Source: a virus | Virus record (IMG/VR): IMGVR_UViG_3300009373_000025 | Location: 1-30,855 of that record | DNA: 30,855 bases | Direction: 5' to 3' (one strand) | Shown: piece after piece, positions 1-16,352 of the stretch | Numbering within the stretch: position 1 is the stretch's first letter | Layout: each line of letters begins with the position of its first letter | Made by a program: the position numbers and the translations under genes | Notes under the pieces: generated by a model | The model's input: the letters and a program-made list of their open reading frames with translations, nothing else | Databases searched by the model: none | What the model was told of the DNA's origin: nothing

Positions 1-3000
1 TAGAACGCTGCCCCGGCGTTATATCCATGCTCCGAATACACTTCCCCACGAACCTCAACCTCTTGAAACTCGGCGACGCCGGTTCGCGTTATCTTATATC
101 CTGCAGATCCCGCCACGTAATTTGTTGATTGCAGGGTGATCAAAAACAATTCGGCCACGTTCATGTGCGCTGCAGCTATGATGCCGGCGGCAATTTCATC
201 AGCCGTGACTGCGCCAGCTGCAAGTTCGGCAGTATCTACGGCACCAGCGGCTATCTTCCCAGCTTCAATTGCGAGGGCTTCTATCTTGTCCGCCGTCACC
301 GCCCCTGCCGCGAGTTCAGCGGTATCGACTGCACCCGCTGCAATTTTGCCAGCCTCAATGGCGAGCGCTTCGATTTTGTCGGCAGTCACCGCACCTGCGG
401 CGAGTTCGTCGGTATCGATTGCGCCGGCGGCGATCTGCGCGGCGGTGATCGCGTTTGCAAGAATGTTTTCGGCCACTATAGTTCCGGAACCTACTTCGGT
501 GACGGACCAGTTGATATAGTCGTCGGAACGCGAGACAGAAGCATCCCAAAGCAGAATACGCAGTCCACAATGTGTGATACGCGAATCGTTGATTTTGTGA
601 AATGTCCGATTATTGGCGCTATTTGGACCTTCTGATTTTTGACATTCTGAAATATCGCGGTCCATTCCGATGAAATACATTGTGTACGTGGTAAATGATG
701 TCGGAGGTGTAATACCCCAAATAAAATGCCCGTCTGCACTTGAGCCAATCAGTCCCCGCGGCGCTGCCGCATAATCATCACCGTAGTAACGATTAAAAGC
801 TAAGCTTCCCGCCCAATTCAGATTACCGCCTTCATCTGCCTCAAACGCCGAAGATGCTCCTATAGAACCGATATACAGAAGGCCATTTGCTGCAGATGAT
901 TTCATCGTCACAGAGATTTTGTAAATCTTATTTTGCGATATCGGAAATGATTTGCTGCGTACTCCCCACCGCCAGTTATTGGTCAACTGCATTGCCTTGA
1001 CGGTCTGTGATTGATAGGTGACATCTTCCAACGTCAACGCCGTTGATTCCCCCGACATCAAAGCGCCGTTTTCCTCATGGTGACCCCAACCGCCAACGTG
1101 CGCCGTTTCGGTCGGGTTGTTCACGAGCTGGCGCGACAATACGCTGAGATGCTCGGCGAAAATCTGCCCGGCGCCCATCGTATCGGCAAGCACCATGCCA
1201 GGGATGTTGCCGGCCGGATTCTGCATGAGCCATTTGATCGCGCCTTGGCCGAGTACTGAATCGAATATGCGGATGTGAGCGAGTTTGCCATCAAAATATG
1301 CCCCAGGAGTCGCATGTGCGCCAATGGTCACATCGATTGCGTTCTGTATTGTAGTGCTGAGAGATCCGCCCCCACCGGACGCGACAAGATTCCCGTCAAG
1401 ATATCCTTTCATCCCTCCGGTCGATCCGTTGCCGTCATATGTGACAGCTATAAAATGCAATGTATTGTCAAGGGCGCCGTCAATCTCAATCTCTACATCA
1501 TCGACAGTGTGATTATCAGCGATCAAAAAAGAAACAGCGTCAACATTGCTTGCGAGAGTAGTAATCCGCCAACCTGCCTGTCCAACACCCCATGTAAGTT
1601 TGTTAATAATAGCAAGGTTCGATCCGCCAGTAACGGGGCCGTTTATCCAGAAAAGCACCGAAAAAGGATCTGTGCGTTCAAAATCAAAATCGGCATGGTC
1701 GGGAACCGTCAGATACATGCTGTCGCCGTCAAGATCAATGCATGGTCCCCCGGGTCCGACGGCGCTATCAATCAATTCATTTCCCGTCGCGTGGTGTCCG
1801 TTCCCGCTATTATCCTTGAATTGATAATTGACTTGATCATTTCCTACATCGTTCAGCGACCAATACGCGACCGGTCCCTCCTGCAAGATCAACCAATCCG
1901 ACATATCGATAGTTGCCTGATGAATCGCGTTGGCGACGAGATCCTTTGCGCCGGTTGCCGTACACACCACAGAAATCGAGCTCGACCACGCCGCCGAATA
2001 GACTTGAGCGCTTCCGCTTTTCCGCTTGTATCGGAATCGTAAGTAATAGGTTTCCGCTGATACAGGCAAGTTTGCCTCGTTGGTCAACGGCATGTTTTGC
2101 AGTACGAAAGATAGTTCGCTGATATCGGTAAAATCATTCTCCAATCCGGTGTACCATCGGTTAACGTCAGTTGATCCGCTAGCTTCAAAGTTCGGTGCGA
2201 ACCAATTCGAATCATTAATCGATATCTGGATCGATAGCCCGTCGGCCCATATCAGATCATCGGTGAAGTCGGCCGGAGTATCCTCTCCCATTGCGTCGAC
2301 CGTGGCGGAAATCGACCGCTTGTCGCCGCTTGCATGAATCGCGCCGGCGCCGACGGTTTCCGGTGCCCATGTTCCAAAGGATTGATGTCGTGTCGGCCCT
2401 ATAACTTCCGTCCACGCTCCGGAGAGGTTCCCGTACTTGTCCTGGGCTACAACCCGATACTTGTAGCCGCTGAGAACTGAGAATTCCGTAGCCTCGGCCA
2501 CCGGATCTTCGTATGAGTTTGTTTCGTGATCAGTGAGTAATGAAGAATATCCGCCGCCGGTGCCCCGCTCGACATCATATATATATGGTCCGATGGGGCC
2601 GCCCACAGTATCCCACTGCAAAAGGATTCTATCCGGGTATGCGACCACCGAGAGATTCGCCACCGTATCCGGGACCGCCGTATACTGTGGCGTGATTGGC
2701 GTTCCGTACCACGTTATAGTCGATTCGTTGCCGTTCACGTCGTAGGCGGAAATCCCGTAGTCATACGCCACACCATCAACCGATGAAATGTCAAGGAACG
2801 TCGTATCGGTGGCGTTGCCCGTATCGCCGACTACATGCGTATCTGACCCATCGGCATTCAGCCGGCGCCATAGCTTGTGGCCTGCCAGCCCCGAGTACTC
2901 GCCGGCGCCATATGTTGCGCCGTGAGTATCATCGCCGACGGTGAAGGTGATCGTCACCTGTGCGTACGTATCGCCGGCGAGGTTCGTAATTGCGCCGTTG

Positions 3001-3872
3001 AGCGGCGGTATCGTCTCGTTATACGACAGGGATGGCTCAGTGGTAGCATTTAGCGCTGCCGCATATGATGATTCTACCCCTCGAGCTGCATTTACGTCCG
3101 TTACAGTCCGGATCCGGTAGTAGAGTGTCTTGCCCGTTTCTGCCGGAGGCGTTCCGGCATTCGGAATATTGCTATGAATAAGTGAAGGGGAGTAGAACGT
3201 CGTATATTGATCAAGCGTCCCTTTCCAATCAACGCCATCGAAGCGCAATGAATACCAGTTGATCTGATCGTCGCTGACCTGTACATCCCAACATCGGAAG
3301 TTAGCCAGGGTGGCCGTGTATCCATTGCTTTTTATCTGCGGGAGTACTTCGAGCACTATGTTGCGCCCTACGGCAGTCGCCGCAGAGCCAAGAGGGGTCT
3401 CCGGTGTGGTCGTCCTATTCGCTATGACGAGTGCTTCCCGGGTCTCGTAATAATCACTGAATTTGGTGCGGAATGTATTCGCCACAATATCCGTGGTAAC
3501 GCTCATGTTGAAAATGACCCCAGCCGGATCATTGTTCAGATAGGTGTCAAGCGCGTTGTAAGCCGTTACATATGCATCGTATTCCGTGTCTCCCGTATCA
3601 ATGCCGTTCTGCGTTGCTATGGAAAGCACCTCAGAGTGCATGGCGGCGATCGCGAGCCATTCCTTCTTTACGATGAGCTTCTCGGCCGGGGTAAGTTTGC
3701 TGTCATCTGCTAAATCGGATAGTTCGGCGCTCAAAACCACGGTATTTGCATCAGTCTCTTCCGTGGCAGTAGCAACATCGGTTATCTGGATGTCGTTGAT
3801 ACCCTCAATGACTTCGAGGTTGCCGGTGATGACAACGTCGCCGATGATGGTCTGCTGTGGTCGCTTTGCCAT
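1..3872 (-). CDS. Tail fibre / tip (J-like) protein, 3' end cut by window edge
   Basis: An open frame runs from an ATG at 3872 to base 1 without a stop, 1290 codons; the last two bases read TA, so the true end is unknown. The start has a GGAGAA ribosome-binding site inside the end of the upstream gene, two bases away. Read in order: a helical N-terminal part (about residues 45-165), several fibronectin-III-like beta domains (about 170-640), a LamG/concanavalin-like jelly roll (about 668-875, with typical VAYW and HIRIFDS strands), a second carbohydrate-binding-like beta domain (about 910-1130), then A/G/I repeats (from about 1140) of the AGAVTADKI type common in phage fibres. Inference: it is the adhesin that contacts the host surface, with the LamG-like domain a sugar-binding candidate. 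FN3 and LamG calls are by eye. It could be a central tip protein or a side fibre. Confidence 0.85.
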   Translation of the reverse strand, partial: MAKRPQQTIIGDVVITGNLEVIEGINDIQITDVATATEETDANTVVLSAELSDLADDSKLTPAEKLIVKKEWLAIAAMHSEVLSIATQNGIDTGDTEYDAYVTAYNALDTYLNNDPAGVIFNMSVTTDIVANTFRTKFSDYYETREALVIANRTTTPETPLGSAATAVGRNIVLEVLPQIKSNGYTATLANFRCWDVQVSDDQINWYSLRFDGVDWKGTLDQYTTFYSPSLIHSNIPNAGTPPAETGKTLYYRIRTVTDVNAARGVESSYAAALNATTEPSLSYNETIPPLNGAITNLAGDTYAQVTITFTVGDDTHGATYGAGEYSGLAGHKLWRRLNADGSDTHVVGDTGNATDTTFLDISSVDGVAYDYGISAYDVNGNESTITWYGTPITPQYTAVPDTVANLSVVAYPDRILLQWDTVGGPIGPYIYDVERGTGGGYSSLLTDHETNSYEDPVAEATEFSVLSGYKYRVVAQDKYGNLSGAWTEVIGPTRHQSFGTWAPETVGAGAIHASGDKRSISATVDAMGEDTPADFTDDLIWADGLSIQISINDSNWFAPNFEASGSTDVNRWYTGLENDFTDISELSFVLQNMPLTNEANLPVSAETYYLRFRYKRKSGSAQVYSAAWSSSISVVCTATGAKDLVANAIHQATIDMSDWLILQEGPVAYWSLNDVGNDQVNYQFKDNSGNGHHATGNELIDSAVGPGGPCIDLDGDSMYLTVPDHADFDFERTDPFSVLFWINGPVTGGSNLAIINKLTWGVGQAGWRITTLASNVDAVSFLIADNHTVDDVEIEIDGALDNTLHFIAVTYDGNGSTGGMKGYLDGNLVASGGGGSLSTTIQNAIDVTIGAHATPGAYFDGKLAHIRIFDSVLGQGAIKWLMQNPAGNIPGMVLADTMGAGQIFAEHLSVLSRQLVNNPTETAHVGGWGHHEENGALMSGESTALTLEDVTYQSQTVKAMQLTNNWRWGVRSKSFPISQNKIYKISVTMKSSAANGLLYIGSIGASSAFEADEGGNLNWAGSLAFNRYYGDDYAAAPRGLIGSSADGHFIWGITPPTSFTTYTMYFIGMDRDISECQKSEGPNSANNRTFHKINDSRITHCGLRILLWDASVSRSDDYINWSVTEVGSGTIVAENILANAITAAQIAAGAIDTDELAAGAVTADKIEALAIEAGKIAAGAVDTAELAAGAVTADKIEALAIEAGKIAAGAVDTAELAAGAVTADEIAAGIIAAAHMNVAELFLITLQSTNYVAGSAGYKITRTGVAEFQEVEVRGEVYSEHGYNAGAAF
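192..431 (-). repeat. In-frame 90-nt tandem repeats in tail fibre gene
   Basis: Two full 30-residue units lie at 312-401 and 222-311, flanked by partial units at 402-431 and 192-221. Each unit contains AAGAVTADKI, then EALAIEAGKI, then AAGAVDTAEL. The protein copies are identical, while the DNA copies differ at many third positions, so this is an old duplication kept by protein-level selection. Such repeats are typical of trimeric fibre shafts. Confidence 0.9.
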
Positions 3873-3874
3873 CG

Positions 3875-6800
3875 CTATTCTCCGAGTACTCGCTCAGCGC
3901 CCTTCTTTAGCATGTAGGGGACGCCGTAATACATCATGATCATTTCCATTGAATCGTCGATAAATTGCCCTGCAGCTTTCTCGCGTTTATACCTGCTGTT
4001 CCTATCGTCCATGGCTTGGTACAGGTTATAGAGTGCTCGCGGTACCATATTCAGCGTACGCTGGACTGGTACTTCGATGTTGCTTGAAGCCGCGAAAGGG
4101 CCGTATCTGATCTTTGCCATTGTAGCTTGCTCAATATCGCGCACAAGGAAGAACATGCCGGCGACGTTATCCACAAAGGCTTCTGTGACCTTCTTTGGTT
4201 CCTTGTCTCGCACTCTATCTCTCAACGCTCTGATTGCTGTTACCCCGGCGATATTGCCGACTACAGCCACAAGCGTGCTCGTGAGCATTGCGTAGTTGCC
4301 ACGCTTAGCATGGTAGATTCCGCGGCGAATGGCGTTGAGCTCCTGATTTGTAAAGCTTGAGAACATCGTAAACATTTTCTCAAGCGTATTCCCTCGCTGC
4401 AGCGCACTCATGTGCTCCGGCGAGAACATCGGCTGTGTCCGCTCCGTTGCCCAATCAGCAAACTTGTAGGCAGCCTGTAGCTTTTGATCCGGGGTCATTT
4501 TTTGTGCCTGCGCCGGCGTAATATCGAGGGCATCCTGAACGGCTCTCGAGAGCTTTCCCGATTCAAACTCATCGAGTGCCTGGAGGACGGCGCCACGCAT
4601 GCCGGAAGAGACTGTCTTTGCGTCGAAGTACTTCGTGCCACCCATCATCAGGTCCCGGATCCGGTTCTTGCCTCCGAGAGACTGCTTATAGATGCTATTC
4701 TTCTGCAGAGCTTCCGCCACGTCTCGGCTGTACCCGCCGCGGCGCCGCTCCACCCATTCCGGCGACATCTCGTCATGGAGATACTTTGTCTTCTTTGGAT
4801 GGATAGTCTCGTCGATCGCACCGCGCATCAGATATTGAGGCTTCACGTAGGCCGAGTACATGCCGTAGGATAGCGGCTGCATGAACCACACCCACGGGTT
4901 GAGACCGAGAGCGTAGCCAGCCATCCCCGCCCGGGCTTTCTGGATGATATTCTCAAACTCGGTATACATCTGATGTTCGCCGGCGATATCTCGAAGTGCC
5001 TTGTCCATCTCTCGCCAGGTCGCCTCGCCGTACCGCTTCATAAACTCTGGCTTAAACCCCGGATGATAAAACAGCTTGGAGGCGTTGGAGAGCGGGAGCT
5101 CAAGGCCGATGTATGCGGCCGCCTTCATCACAGATCGGTTGACATCGTAGGCGACATTATTGAGATACACGGCATTCTTGACGCCTTGGCGCTCCATCAT
5201 GAAACCCTTCGGAACGCCTACCCGGACATAGTTCTTTTTAAATGACTCGATGAAATCCTGCGACTCGACGTCCCGGCCGTCGTAGCGAGTCGCCGGCATA
5301 ACGTCGACTGGATAATATTTCTCGCGCATCGGCGGCTCATATCCGTTTTTCTCAAGGAATATAGGCACGAGCTCCTCACCTTGCTCCGCAAACATCTTCT
5401 CGGCAGCCTTGGCGAACGCGAGTTCCTGGTCATCCAGCGAACTGACTATCTCGTTGAGCTCATCCTCATCGATATTGAATATTTGATTCCGATGCGTATG
5501 TTCCCTGAAGCCGATTCCGCCGGCGAGGATGTGATCTCGGTTGTCCTCATCAAGTGAGTGCAGATACAATGCAATGCGTTGCCCGCGCTCGAGCTTAAAC
5601 CTACCAGTCCGGACTTCCTTTTCAATCCAGCGTTTTATATCCTTCTCGGTAAACCCACTTTCATAGAGATCGCCATGGAATCGGTTGAACACGTCCTGTC
5701 GATATTGCATCTGCCGCGCAATGCCGTCCTTCACTTGACGGTACATCACGTCAAAAAAGGTACTTCTCGGTCCTGCTACTTTCTCGGCAATCAGGTCATA
5801 ATGATCGTGTTGAACGCCGAAGAATGCTCTTAGAGATCTGGCAGTCTGCCGAGTTTTCCCGACTTTGCGGGGCCCGACGGTAACCTCCCCTTTGATTTTC
5901 TTTGGCTTCTTTAGCTCAGAAAGCACCGTCTCCCGCACGTCGTCGGCTTCCATCTTTGCCTGGTGGACCTTGATTTCTTTCTTCAGCTTGTCCAGGTGAA
6001 CGGCGTGGAGTACTCCGTCGTGAACGAGCTCAACCTCGTCAGGAGTCATTTCTCCGACAGGGGTCTTGTCGAGGATCTTCAAGCTTTCCATGACATCATC
6101 CGGGAGCTCGGCGTCTTCATTTTGCTCGAGGAACCGCCTGGTATTAGAAAGGCGGGCAATGGTCTTTTTCTGCCGGCGCCATACCAGATCAAGGCCTTCG
6201 GTAAGGCCAAGTATTTCGTCTCGATAAAGCGGATCCATCTTCGGAGCTTTCTTGACCGCGTTCTCGAGATCTCCGATCGCTTTGTTGACTCGATCGTGCT
6301 GTTCTCGATTCCCGCGGAGACGTTCCTGTTGCTCCTGGAAGCGGGCCCTTGCTTGAGCGGCGCCGATCTCTCTTCCTTCGCGTCTTGCAGCCCGAGCTGC
6401 CTGCTCGGATTTCTTCATGGCAGCTTGGAGAGCCTGACGCTCGGTTACTAAACGGTTCATCTGCGTCTGTCCCGTCACCCGTCGCACCTGCGTTTTCATT
6501 GGCCTTCGACGTGCCGGCACTTCAGCCCCGGATACTATATCGGCTGCCTGGGCCTCTTCTGCCCTGGCTTGTTCTTGTCTGCCCATGAGATTTTGCGCCA
6601 TCTGTTGCGCAGCCTGGAATGCCTGTGACTGTTCGTCGAGTTCCTGCAAAGACTCTTGATCGTTATTTACGATCGCAAAAAGCCCTCGATAAAACTCGGG
6701 ATTATTTCGAATCATCGACGCGAGTCGGCGTGCATGGCCTTCTTTTAGTATGCCTCCTTTCTTTGAAACCAGGGCCGCAGACCACCAGAGTGGAGAAAGG

Positions 6801-12461: not shown

Positions 12462-12861
12462 CGTTGAACCTCACAAATTGAAGCCAGTCCTCGCCGAGGG
12501 GGCCGATGTTTCGGATCACGCATTCGGGAACGCAGCCGAGCCAGTATGCGAACCGAATTGCCTTGGGATTGAGAATATCGACCTGCATCGATAACCTTCT
12601 ATAATCCGAGACGTACCGCTCCCAGATCCTTCGCATTTGGATGAAGAGTGCGGGATACTGAAGACCTTCCGGGGTCAGCCAAAGGAAGGCTTCGGCGCAG
12701 CTATTCATACCCTTGCGAACTCCGCCCACCGCTACTGCCGTGCCGTCAATCACTGCCATCACCGCATCGACACGCTCATCGTTGATGATGGGCTCAAGCA
12801 GCTCGTCAGGTAGCCAAGTCAGCATGCAGGCACGCGGCCGCAAGAATGTCGCTTTCTTCAT
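12454..12861 (-). CDS. T7 gp13-like / GNAT-fold virion assembly protein
   Basis: 135 aa, ATG overlapping the nozzle gene stop as ATGA. The pattern fits the GNAT-like family that includes T7 gp13: a central strand pair (AVMAVIDGTAVAVGGV), a helix, MQVDILNPKAIRFAYWLGC as the typical C-terminal helix where acetyltransferases read 'N..A..F...LGF', and a final strand GEDWLQFVRF. In T7-like phages this protein is needed for internal core assembly or is lost from the mature particle. The acetyl-CoA loop (Q/RxxGxG/A) is not evident, so catalysis is doubtful. Position immediately before the ejection genes supports the call. Confidence 0.65.
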   Translation of the reverse strand: MKKATFLRPRACMLTWLPDELLEPIINDERVDAVMAVIDGTAVAVGGVRKGMNSCAEAFLWLTPEGLQYPALFIQMRRIWERYVSDYRRLSMQVDILNPKAIRFAYWLGCVPECVIRNIGPLGEDWLQFVRFNDA

Positions 12862-14927
12862 GCTATTTCCGTCCTTGGCACTATTGAGGTAACGGTGGTA
12901 GGCTCGGCTTTTTCCGAAACGATGTTGATGCAGGCCTCTTTGTCGTAATTGCCTGAAAATGGGAGGGCAATGATATCGTCGGACCAGGTGCTCCCCAGAT
13001 CCTTCGTTTCGGTCTCAGCCGTATCCCAGGTGTTAAATCCGGCCTGGATATCGAGCGAGTGGTAGAGCCTGATATAGAGTGCGTTGACTCGCTTATCCTG
13101 ATTCGCCCCGCTTCCGGTCGACTTGACAACCGGTGAGGGCATCGATCGATACTTACTCGTGAACGCGAGACCGACATACATCTGAGTGCCGGAGTATCCC
13201 GAAAAATCTATCACTCCCGATCCATTCGCAGAGAGATCCGTCACGTGCTCGCCGTCGACGATGAGCGCTACCGTATCGTTTGCCAGCCAGGAGCACGTCA
13301 CGGTATTCCCGGACACGAGCGTGAGCGGATCCGCCGTGACGTCATAGCAGGCATCGGCAAACTCACAGAGCCCTTGAGTCGCTGGGAATGGATCGGTGAG
13401 CTTGACGATGTAGTAATTCGTCCCGTCATGAACGGCAGCGTATACCACGTCATCACCACTCTCCGGTATCACCGCCACAGAGATCCAGGTCCACGAGTCG
13501 CCGAGGATCCACCGCTGCCAGGCCAGCACATTGGCCGCCCGTTCATAGGTGAGGACCGCGAGCTCACCGTCAGCCCGCACGAAATACGCTACACTGTACG
13601 GCTCCTGCTGGTAGTCGAATTGCACGACTCCCGTTGCCCCACAAACGTGATCGGCATACCGGGTGAGATTCGGTGAGACATAGCCCTGGCGCTCGTAGGT
13701 GTACTGATATTCCCGCACTTTTTTGCCATCTCCCTGCAGGAAGAGCATAGAGTCTCGCACGAGTTTTGGCTGGATGGTATTCGAGCCGTACCGTGTCATG
13801 AGCTCGGCAGCCGGCGTACGTGCAGAAATGTTATGTGGGATTACCCATTCGGCTGCCGCGGTATTGATAACCAGGTGCTTCGCCGACGACATGCCATAAA
13901 TCGCATCGCTCTTATCTGACGCAATCTCGATATCAATCGCATTGCTGTCTGTGATGATCTCCCGGACGTAGGTGATCGCCTCAGTCTCCGGCTCGTCGGC
14001 CACCGCCCATTCGGCGTCGGGCTTGAGTACTTGACGAGTCGCCGTCACAGTCTCGTACATAGTCAGGTCGACGTACAGCGTGCCTGAGTCAATCAGGTAC
14101 TCATAGGTCTCACTTCCCCATGCCCGCTGCGGCTCGTTGTTCGTGCCGCCAAACCAGAACCGCCCACCGATGATCGCGATGGTCCGCGGATACTTGCTGG
14201 CGCCACCGAACGGAGTGGTAGATCCGTCAGCGTGAAATTTATGCCCAATGACCAAGCTGTCTCCGCCGTCATAGGTTCTCCTAAGCGCCGGAGAGACGCC
14301 GCTGAAAGTCGAAGTGGCCCAGGATGTATAAGTATATTCATCTGATTTCCCCACATCGTATTCAACAGAAAATGAGCCCTGTTGCGGAACCGAGGCACCG
14401 ATCGCCTCTTGGACGACAAAATCCTCGTCATCTGCAACGTTGCCCGTCGCATGGCTCGTGTAGGTGGCGCCAACGTTGTAGATGAAGACGATACTGCCGA
14501 ATGAGAATGTATCGGTCGCAGTCCTGACCAGCGCCGCCGGCGCATGGGCGTTGTGTGCGAAGTAGATCCCGTTGTTGTCCTGGCAGTAGTGAATGTCCCA
14601 GATCTGCGCGGCCGTATAGGTCGGCGAGCTCGTGGTCGCAACAACGTCTCCGTTCCTCCATACCCGCAGGTATCCGTTCGTGAGCTCAACGATATAGCTC
14701 TCGGTATCGTTGTACACAAACGGGATCAACCGCGGTTTATTGGTATTCCCGTAGGCGGCGCCAACATACTCGGTGCCCGGGCGTTTGGTGAGAATCGCCT
14801 GCTCGGTGATGAGAAAGTTTTCGAGCACCTGAGCACCCGCATGGTAGAACGGCAGGTCCGATCGCCCGAACGTTTTATCGTCGAGCTCGCCGGCAGCCCA
14901 ATTGTTGATGACCGGTGTTTGGATCAC
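12858..14927 (-). CDS. Tail nozzle (tail tubular protein B-like)
   Basis: 689 aa, GTG start sharing GTGA with the stop of the adaptor gene. The N-terminal part matches podovirus nozzle proteins: NFLITEQAILTKRPGTEYV, PRLIPFVYNDTESYIVELTNGYLRVWRNG and later GSNTIQPKLVRDSMLFLQGDGKKVREY followed by beta-rich propeller-like sequence. It should form the hexameric nozzle that closes the short tail. An unusual insert at about residues 156-228 is shared with the adjacent adaptor protein (see separate entries). Without it the length is near that of related nozzle proteins (about 600 aa). Confidence 0.85.
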   Translation of the reverse strand: MIQTPVINNWAAGELDDKTFGRSDLPFYHAGAQVLENFLITEQAILTKRPGTEYVGAAYGNTNKPRLIPFVYNDTESYIVELTNGYLRVWRNGDVVATTSSPTYTAAQIWDIHYCQDNNGIYFAHNAHAPAALVRTATDTFSFGSIVFIYNVGATYTSHATGNVADDEDFVVQEAIGASVPQQGSFSVEYDVGKSDEYTYTSWATSTFSGVSPALRRTYDGGDSLVIGHKFHADGSTTPFGGASKYPRTIAIIGGRFWFGGTNNEPQRAWGSETYEYLIDSGTLYVDLTMYETVTATRQVLKPDAEWAVADEPETEAITYVREIITDSNAIDIEIASDKSDAIYGMSSAKHLVINTAAAEWVIPHNISARTPAAELMTRYGSNTIQPKLVRDSMLFLQGDGKKVREYQYTYERQGYVSPNLTRYADHVCGATGVVQFDYQQEPYSVAYFVRADGELAVLTYERAANVLAWQRWILGDSWTWISVAVIPESGDDVVYAAVHDGTNYYIVKLTDPFPATQGLCEFADACYDVTADPLTLVSGNTVTCSWLANDTVALIVDGEHVTDLSANGSGVIDFSGYSGTQMYVGLAFTSKYRSMPSPVVKSTGSGANQDKRVNALYIRLYHSLDIQAGFNTWDTAETETKDLGSTWSDDIIALPFSGNYDKEACINIVSEKAEPTTVTSIVPRTEIA
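14244..14462 (-). repeat. 73-residue inserted module, copy in nozzle gene
   Basis: Residues 156-228 of the nozzle protein align without gaps to residues 67-139 of the neighbouring adaptor protein; I count 30 of 73 identities. Shared anchors are YTSHA at the start, then F, I, A, P, G, V, YD.G, DEY.Y.SW, F, and finally RTYD.GD..V. The copy sits between two conserved nozzle strands. The module is not part of the nozzle proteins I know and may be a small beta domain. Confidence 0.75.
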
Positions 14928-15736
14928 TTAACATCCACCCATCTCTTCTTGCCGGTAGCCGGATACTCAGCCACTCGCTGGTGTGCATCGGCCGCCACGG
15001 CGTCATCGAGAGCTTCCTTGGCCTCATCGCGCATGAGCAGGACCAGGTCCCTTTGCTTGCGCGGCGCTAATCTAAAAGCGAGCTCCGCGGCGATCGCGTC
15101 TGCTACATGCTCATCGTAGACCACGGCACTGCTTACCTCGTCGCGGATATCTTTGATGTACCTGAGCACTACGCCGAGCTCGGAGTCGTACTCGTTGGTG
15201 TAGAGATAATCTCCCTCCACCAACCGCTCGATCGTGTCATCATGGTTGATCTCGAGAGCTCTCAGGCAATCACTCGGAAGATCGTACATGTACTCAAACT
15301 CGTTGTCGTGGTTGTTTGGAGTCGTCACCATGGTATCGCCGTCGTCGTACGTTCGATTGAGCGTCACCCCGTCGAGGGTGAAGATCGCTCCGGTCCATGA
15401 AGAGTAATCGTACTCGTCTGTCAGACCCGTATCGTAGGTGACGGTGATCGTTCCGGTTCTGGGAGTATCTGCGTCGATGCTGGTGGTGCACTCGAACGTG
15501 CTCGAGCCGGAGGTGTTGTTGCTCGCATGCGAGGTGTAGTCGTCTTCAGCTTCAGACGCCAATGTCGACCAGGCTACTGCGTTTCGCCAGTCGTGGGCGG
15601 TGAGTACTTTGCATGCGGCTACTGGATAGAGCCGCCTAAAACGCTTGGCCTCATCCGATGGATCATTAGCGTAATCAGCAATCGCCTCAACGCCAAGGAT
15701 ATCATTGGCAAGGTTACATACATCAGTAATAGTCAT
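14924..15736 (-). CDS. Tail adaptor protein (tail tubular A-like), second copy with insert
   Basis: 270 aa, ATG with a GGAG site within the previous stop. The ends match podovirus adaptor proteins: MTITDVCNLANDILG at the start, a helix with FRRLYPVAACKVLTAHDWRNA, then MYDLPSDCLRAL, YLYTN and VVYDEHVADAIAAELAFRLAP. Such proteins form the 12-mer ring between portal and nozzle. It is longer than usual because residues 67-139 are an insert that replaces the normal short loop before the LPSDCLR strand. The gene before it is a second adaptor-like gene, so this phage carries two. Confidence 0.8.
   Translation of the reverse strand: MTITDVCNLANDILGVEAIADYANDPSDEAKRFRRLYPVAACKVLTAHDWRNAVAWSTLASEAEDDYTSHASNNTSGSSTFECTTSIDADTPRTGTITVTYDTGLTDEYDYSSWTGAIFTLDGVTLNRTYDDGDTMVTTPNNHDNEFEYMYDLPSDCLRALEINHDDTIERLVEGDYLYTNEYDSELGVVLRYIKDIRDEVSSAVVYDEHVADAIAAELAFRLAPRKQRDLVLLMRDEAKEALDDAVAADAHQRVAEYPATGKKRWVDVK
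15320..15538 (-). repeat. 73-residue inserted module, copy in adaptor gene
   Basis: Residues 67-139 of the 270-aa adaptor protein, bounded by DYTSHA and DGDTMVTT, match the insert of the nozzle protein (30 of 73 identical, no gaps). Removing the segment leaves a continuous adaptor fold of about 197 aa, near the 203 aa of the neighbouring adaptor gene, which lacks it. Confidence 0.75.
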
Positions 15737-15740
15737 GTGA

Positions 15741-16352
15741 CTACTCCGAGATTATATTTCGACCGCGAAGAACCTGCGCCGGATTAATTTGCTGGAGCAT
15801 CGTGATGGTCTCATTTGCTTCTTTGGTGTCTTCTACGATTTTCAGCTTGATAGCTACACTGAGAAGGGCCAGAAATTCCTGATACAGCATTGCATATAGC
15901 TCGATGTTGCCGGTGATCCGAAATGCAATCTTGCTTGCCAGCCTCACTTCTATGCAGGAGAGCAAAATCGCATCCCAATTCGCAATCGTGGCTTCTTGAG
16001 CTGTATGCTTGAAATAGCCTGTCTCTTCGTTCGTAAAGAGCGTTAAACCCTCGACGGCGAATGGCTTATCTGTATCATTTCCAACAGTCAGCACGGTGAG
16101 AACTGTACTTGCGAGCGTATGCTTGTAGCCAAAAGTCGATTCCGCGGCGGCCGATGTGGACAACGCCGTCCTCGTGATGAGACACGACCAAGGAAGCAGT
16201 TTGCAGATTTCATCTCGAGTATCGATGTAGAAATGCTTTACAGTTTTTGCCCAATCGGAAGTGTCGTCGATAGAGTCAATTTTCGCGGCTCCCACTCTTA
16301 GTAATGCCAGGTTGGCAACGTCTGTTTCTGATGATGCAGCTGCCGCTGCCAT
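15741..16352 (-). CDS. Tail adaptor protein (tail tubular A-like), first copy
   Basis: 203 aa, ATG preceded by AAGGAG at good spacing and by a strong hairpin. The sequence shows the adaptor signature SETDVANLALLRVGAAKIDSIDD, then AKTVKHFYIDTRDEICKLLPWSC, and C-terminal helices (CIEVRLASKIAFRITGNIELY, LLSVAIKLKIVEDT). Family proteins dock on the portal and open the tail channel. The two adjacent adaptor-like genes are only distantly similar. They may occupy different rings of the neck, or one may be a head-completion protein; the sequence alone does not tell. Confidence 0.75.
   Translation of the reverse strand: MAAAAASSETDVANLALLRVGAAKIDSIDDTSDWAKTVKHFYIDTRDEICKLLPWSCLITRTALSTSAAAESTFGYKHTLASTVLTVLTVGNDTDKPFAVEGLTLFTNEETGYFKHTAQEATIANWDAILLSCIEVRLASKIAFRITGNIELYAMLYQEFLALLSVAIKLKIVEDTKEANETITMLQQINPAQVLRGRNIISE

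Follow-up and report, generated by a model that had tools for sequence, protein, structure and literature searches.

A predicted six-stranded beta-barrel shared by the second tail adaptor and the adjacent nozzle protein of a podovirus-like phage

Introduction

Two neighbouring genes for short-tail proteins, one encoding a tail adaptor and the other a nozzle protein, were found to share a segment of 73 residues. The locus raises the question of what this segment (hereafter the module) is, how it came to stand in both proteins and where the two copies would lie in the assembled tail. It was noticed in a sequence-only reading of the window, which is the whole 30.9 kb stretch of viral DNA analysed here; the segment was described there as a module inserted in two unrelated tail proteins, spread between neighbouring genes and perhaps facing its counterpart in the tail. 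In our study, the homology of the copies, the barrel fold, the insertion in the adaptor and the equivalence of the nozzle slot among homologues were computed.

Results

The features of the window are listed in Table 1.

Table 1. Location of the two module copies, their host genes and the surrounding features
Feature	Coordinates	Strand	Basis or content
Whole stretch			30.9 kb virus record with a podovirus-like structural cluster
Structural cluster		-	Terminase, portal, major head protein, two tandem tail adaptors (phrog_394), nozzle (phrog_376), large downstream proteins
First adaptor paralogue, 203 aa, no module	15741..16352	-	phrog_394, E 1.8e-28; short loop, slot of 17 residues
Second adaptor, T7 gp11-like tail adaptor, 270 aa, module carrier	14924..15736	-	phrog_394 tail protein, E 1.5e-24; AlphaFold model
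First strand of putative fibre dock, adaptor residues 54-59, just ahead of module	15560..15577	-	DSSP on model; domain named by analogy with T7 gp11 (PMC6702177)
Module copy 1, adaptor residues 67-139, predicted six-stranded beta-barrel	15320..15538	-	Alignment, homologue comparison, model, structure matches
Other strands of putative fibre dock, adaptor residues 149-195, after module	15152..15292	-	DSSP on model; conserved YxLPSDCLRVL start in homologues
Nozzle, T7 gp12-like, tail tubular protein B, 689 aa, GTG start	12858..14927	-	phrog_376, E 9e-103
Module copy 2, nozzle residues 156-228, same predicted beta-barrel, fills the probable nozzle-tip slot	14244..14462	-	Alignment, profile match, model
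Probable nozzle-tip slot in beta-propeller, nozzle residues 150-245	14193..14480	-	Variable content in 88 homologues; maps to about T7 gp12 150-345

The predicted structure of the second adaptor (pLDDT 86) aligned through its core with the Carin-1 connector (8ck1_E, Z 13.3) and with T7 gp11 (6r21_M, Z 10.9). The model contained helices at residues 3-14, 28-47, 205-223 and 226-251, the second and third of which are separated by strands, so that the protein joins the phrog_394 profile to the four-helix bundle and the fibre-dock beta-domain between helices 2 and 3 that characterize T7 gp11-like adaptors. The equation of this beta-domain with the fibre dock of T7 is made by analogy. The nozzle model (pLDDT 86, pTM 0.84) aligned over its full length with Carin-1 8ck1_A (Z 40.7, 2.2 Å over 556) and T7 gp12 (6r21_a, Z 27.1), and was found to have the beta-propeller, the platform built from both chain ends and the tip domain inserted in the propeller that mark T7 gp12-like (phrog_376) proteins. 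The two hosts therefore have different folds, as the sequence-only reading held. They are the folds of T7 gp11 and gp12 and of the Carin-1 connector and nozzle (8CK1), whereas the tip domains of those phages are of other sequence.

The adaptor-1 sequences of the window, L001 and L022 formed one clade (100/100) and the adaptor-2 sequences of the window, L001, L003 and L022 formed another (100/99). Because the two sets form separate clades, the tandem arrangement of adaptors must be old, and the tail may contain two adaptor rings stacked on each other.

The two module copies aligned without gaps and contained 30 identical residues among 73, and the previously given coordinates and counts were exact. 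The Smith-Waterman score of the pair was 160, whereas the highest score of 2000 shuffles was 83. A profile of three adaptor copies compared with a profile of three nozzle copies by hhalign gave a probability of 99.3% (E 2e-20). Chance resemblance is ruled out by the shuffles and the profile comparison. At the DNA level the copies were only 48% identical (38% at third codon positions); the resemblance is therefore an old one that lies at the protein level, and the third codon positions also rule out a recent duplication.

Both predicted structures gave the same compact barrel, and the 73-residue segment is thus a discrete domain, as had been supposed. The strands of copy 1 (DSSP on the model) were found at residues 65-69, 80-83, 95-101, 105-115, 118-121 and 135-140, and those of copy 2 at 154-158, 169-172, 184-191, 194-204, 207-209 and 224-227, which are the copy 1 positions shifted by 89; because the alignment behind each prediction included module pieces of the other host protein, the two models are only partly independent of each other. 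In the adaptor model, most blocks of the module core had a pLDDT of 91-97.

The copy 1 unit (adaptor model residues 64-141) was compared with the PDB by structure. It matched the JBD30 distal tail protein (8rk3_D 248-325; Z 10.0, 2.0 Å over 74), the Mystique tail tube (9n71_A 104-179; Z 9.8, 2.1 Å over 74), the LKA1 tailspike (4ru4_B 286-370; Z 9.1, 2.2 Å over 73) and the Chi tail tip (8vjh_B 234-309; Z 9.0, 2.2 Å), followed by weaker matches to a K1 capsule lyase, the lambda tail tip, a GP4 tail protein of 116 residues and the N-terminal barrels of V-ATPase. The P22 I-domain and the T7 tip barrel were absent among the structural matches listed, which is uninformative either way. A search of the PDB by sequence gave no match at a meaningful E-value, a result compatible with kinship to the solved barrels. 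According to the model, the module is a compact six-stranded beta-barrel of a known kind, the insertion or decoration barrel of phage tails. Because copy 1 matches solved barrels of this kind, both the fold and its role as an addition to tail proteins were known beforehand; what is new is the sequence family.

Among the matches listed, the best single domain was OB domain V of the JBD30 distal tail protein (8RK3 chain D, 252-320). According to the JBD30 paper (PMC11445458), this domain decorates the distal tail protein, is named oligosaccharide-binding and is one of two such domains in the protein. Like the module it is a decoration inserted in a tail protein, whereas its host is a siphophage distal tail protein and its sequence does not match the module. 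The barrel of the LKA1 gp49 tailspike (4RU4, residues 284-370) also has six strands and a similar length and lies in a loop of an unrelated fold, but its host is a polysaccharide lyase tailspike and its sequence similarity to the module is not detectable; the barrel was reported in PMC5701251, from which its tie to the P22 coat protein also comes. The Mystique barrel (9N71, 104-179) is similar too, but it stands within the tube protein of a long-tailed structure and not in an adaptor or a nozzle. Insertion domains of the barrel or OB type have thus been described before in several tail proteins, and even twice within a single one, for JBD30 (PMC11445458) and for LKA1 (PMC5701251).

The adaptor slot was defined as the stretch from helix 2 to the conserved YxLPSDCLRVL strand in an alignment of 63 adaptor-type sequences. 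The slot was 15-21 residues long in most of these, 95-96 residues where the module was present (window, L001 and L003) and about 89-94 residues where it contained an E1_FCCH-like domain (another lineage and L016). In L022, which falls within the clade of the module carriers (100/99), the slot had 21 residues, and the Carin-1 and LME-1 adaptors (8ck1_E, 9efk_T) were without an inserted barrel. In the model, strands 54-59 and 149-152 are the first two of the beta-domain that separates helices 2 and 3, and the module falls between them. Since L022 and most homologues have a short slot and the module lies between two strands of the T7 gp11-like core, the adaptor module is a true and clean insertion. 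The podovirus lineage with an E1_FCCH-like domain in the adaptor loop comprised L024, L025, L026, L028, L029, L031-L034, L037, L038 and L040. In E1_FCCH (PF16190) adaptors such as those of L024 and L016 the same loop is occupied, but by another sequence family; neither module copy had a Pfam match to PF16190, and hhalign gave a probability of 1.2%.

In the nozzle, the slot was never empty in the 88 homologues and contained at least 95 residues. Most of them had a common barrel-like motif there, the window, L001 and L003 had the module and L016 had an E1_FCCH-like stretch. The earlier description of both copies as inserted therefore holds for the adaptor, which has homologues without the module, but not for the nozzle, where the slot is filled in all 88 homologues and its content alone differs. 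The nozzle segment is no optional extra; the module replaces the usual tip domain, to which it showed no detectable sequence kinship (hhalign probability under 1%). Position 262 of the nozzle profile, just past the slot, pairs with T7 residue 352. In T7 gp12, a loop of blade 3 extends into the nozzle tip, whose base carries Y146, Y281 and W297 (PMC6702177). Because it maps to the site of the T7 gp12 tip, the slot is most likely the nozzle tip, and the module would serve there as the tip domain. Assignment of the slot to the platform domain was dropped, as the T7 (PMC6702177) and SU10 papers place the platform otherwise.

From its sequence, the nozzle slot of BPP-1 and two relatives (L013, L014 and L075) appears fibronectin type III-like, which would be one more case of replacement at the tip. 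In L016 (phage MW202510.1, 3480-7042), E1_FCCH-like domains were found in the adaptor slot and in the nozzle slot, the nozzle match being the weaker (3.5e-7, with a profile built from adaptors). L016 is a possible second case of one module type at both sites.

The other two module-bearing phages, L001 and L003 of IMG/VR, contained both inserts at the identical two sites. Further copies were sought with consensus queries, there being too few conserved stretches for degenerate patterns. The module was found in further phage structural proteins of L002, L007, L008, L009, L010 and L123. The carriers of L002 and L009 are putative adaptor-position proteins by gene position and length, with no PHROG match, and in L007, L008, L010 and L123 the module lies towards the C-terminal end of large structural proteins. 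L123, a contig filed under a Microgenomates genome, had it in the same C-terminal setting in two such genes that are neighbours (1-1656 and 2546-4990). In L010 (2949-5633) a different, repeat-like domain of about 80 residues split the module. No family for the module was found in Pfam, PHROGs or NCBIfam, though its fold and insertion habit are known; BACON and DUF5046 were rejected as weak matches far under the cut-offs. The tblastn search of 50,697 phage records with one module copy or the consensus gave nothing meaningful, so the family is rare in that collection. The best explanation is that the module comes from a larger stock of domains of phage structural proteins.

A tree of the module was built from 13 copies and 78 columns. 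The nozzle copies grouped together (100/99) and adjoined the adaptor copy of L003 (86/88), and the adaptor and nozzle copies of the three phages lay on one side of a branch, with the other copies opposite (90/92). The adaptor module of the window was 58% identical to that of L007, 53% to that of L002 and 39% to its own nozzle copy.

Discussion

The module is a new sequence family of a known kind of insertion barrel, placed at two positions of the podovirus tail that were already known to vary. For its history, the sequences allow, but do not prove, a single copying step long ago, perhaps out of the adaptor gene into the nozzle gene. The proposed spread between neighbouring tail genes gains only moderate support, which comes from the 90/92 branch in a short alignment of 78 columns. 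A rival for the history alone, and one compatible with the functional reading favoured below, is that the module was captured twice independently from a common domain pool. It is a serious candidate, although we lean somewhat against it: the adaptor copy of the window is closer to the L007 and L002 copies than to its own nozzle copy, and the two copies share few third codon positions, but every adaptor and nozzle copy from the three phages falls on one side of the 90/92 branch and the nozzle copies adjoin the L003 adaptor copy. It is rather improbable that the nozzle module is a strongly diverged form of the ordinary tip barrel, from which the adaptor module was copied. A domain is present in the slot of every homologue, and in a MAFFT alignment the common tip motif falls on the module at similar spacing, as this would have it; against it stand the negligible hhalign probability between the module and the common tip domain and the nesting of the nozzle copies beside adaptor copies, for which the opposite direction fits slightly better.

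For the placement of the copies in the tail, we infer how many stand in each ring, where they lie in the particle and what the two do. With moderate confidence, we favour a six-stranded decoration barrel from the wider pool that stands in the fibre-dock loop of the adaptor and in the nozzle-tip slot, with a docking role in the former and a tip role in the latter. The module would have entered the loop between the first two fibre-dock strands of the second adaptor before the three phages diverged, and would have come to fill the tip slot of the adjacent nozzle gene either as a copy of the adaptor module or through a further capture. With ring sizes like those of T7, 12 adaptor barrels would project radially round the neck at the fibre-docking site and would most likely enlarge or brace the fibre-docking surface; in SU10, the fibre-dock domain and radially projecting loops hold the tail fibre. 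At the distal tip, the same assumption gives a ring of six small nozzle barrels, which would most likely act as a distal plug. The T7 nozzle tip protrudes toward the outer membrane (PMC6702177), and in the present phage too the tip would shut the tail and meet the host envelope first.

The sequence-only reading had the modules facing each other, and two barrels that meet could provide an extra contact between adaptor and nozzle. In T7 the adaptor and nozzle rings do touch, with the fibre between two fibre docks (PMC6702177). However, the adaptor-facing part of the T7 nozzle is the platform, formed by the N-terminal 45 residues and the C-terminal domain (PMC6702177), which makes a direct meeting unlikely since this part comes from the chain ends, whereas the module is in a beta-propeller loop that maps to the distal tip and its counterpart is in the fibre dock between helices 2 and 3. 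We regard a meeting of the barrels as very improbable; by analogy with T7, the two copies most likely sit apart, one at the fibre-docking ring and the other at the tail tip.

The main rival reading is sugar binding by both barrels, in which the adaptor ring and the tip would bind the same envelope glycan on the host surface and adsorption would be raised by avidity. It draws on analogy with the matched barrels: that of JBD30 is called oligosaccharide-binding, the LKA1 insertion domain lines the substrate groove of a polysaccharide lyase (PMC5701251) and a K1 capsule lyase also carries the barrel. The same fold, however, also occurs in a tail-tube protein and at the N-terminus of V-ATPase proteins, and in the accessible part of PMC11445458 the OB label of JBD30 is given without a sugar-binding assay. 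We consider glycan binding unlikely and retain the docking and tip roles as the preferred reading.

A further reading takes the fibre dock and the nozzle tip as interchangeable sockets supplied from one pool of barrels, in which selection favours the same family in both, through a shared ligand or fibre part. We hold this to be quite doubtful; if it were true, L016 would count as another, independent example, since each of its two sockets contains an E1_FCCH-like domain.

Because this type of barrel was already known as an addition to tail proteins, the news is modest. Two fixed sites of the podovirus tail, the first fibre-dock hairpin of the adaptor and the loop of the nozzle tip, take different small domains across lineages. 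These sites map natural domain exchange in short tails and give a testable idea of the role of the exchanged domains.
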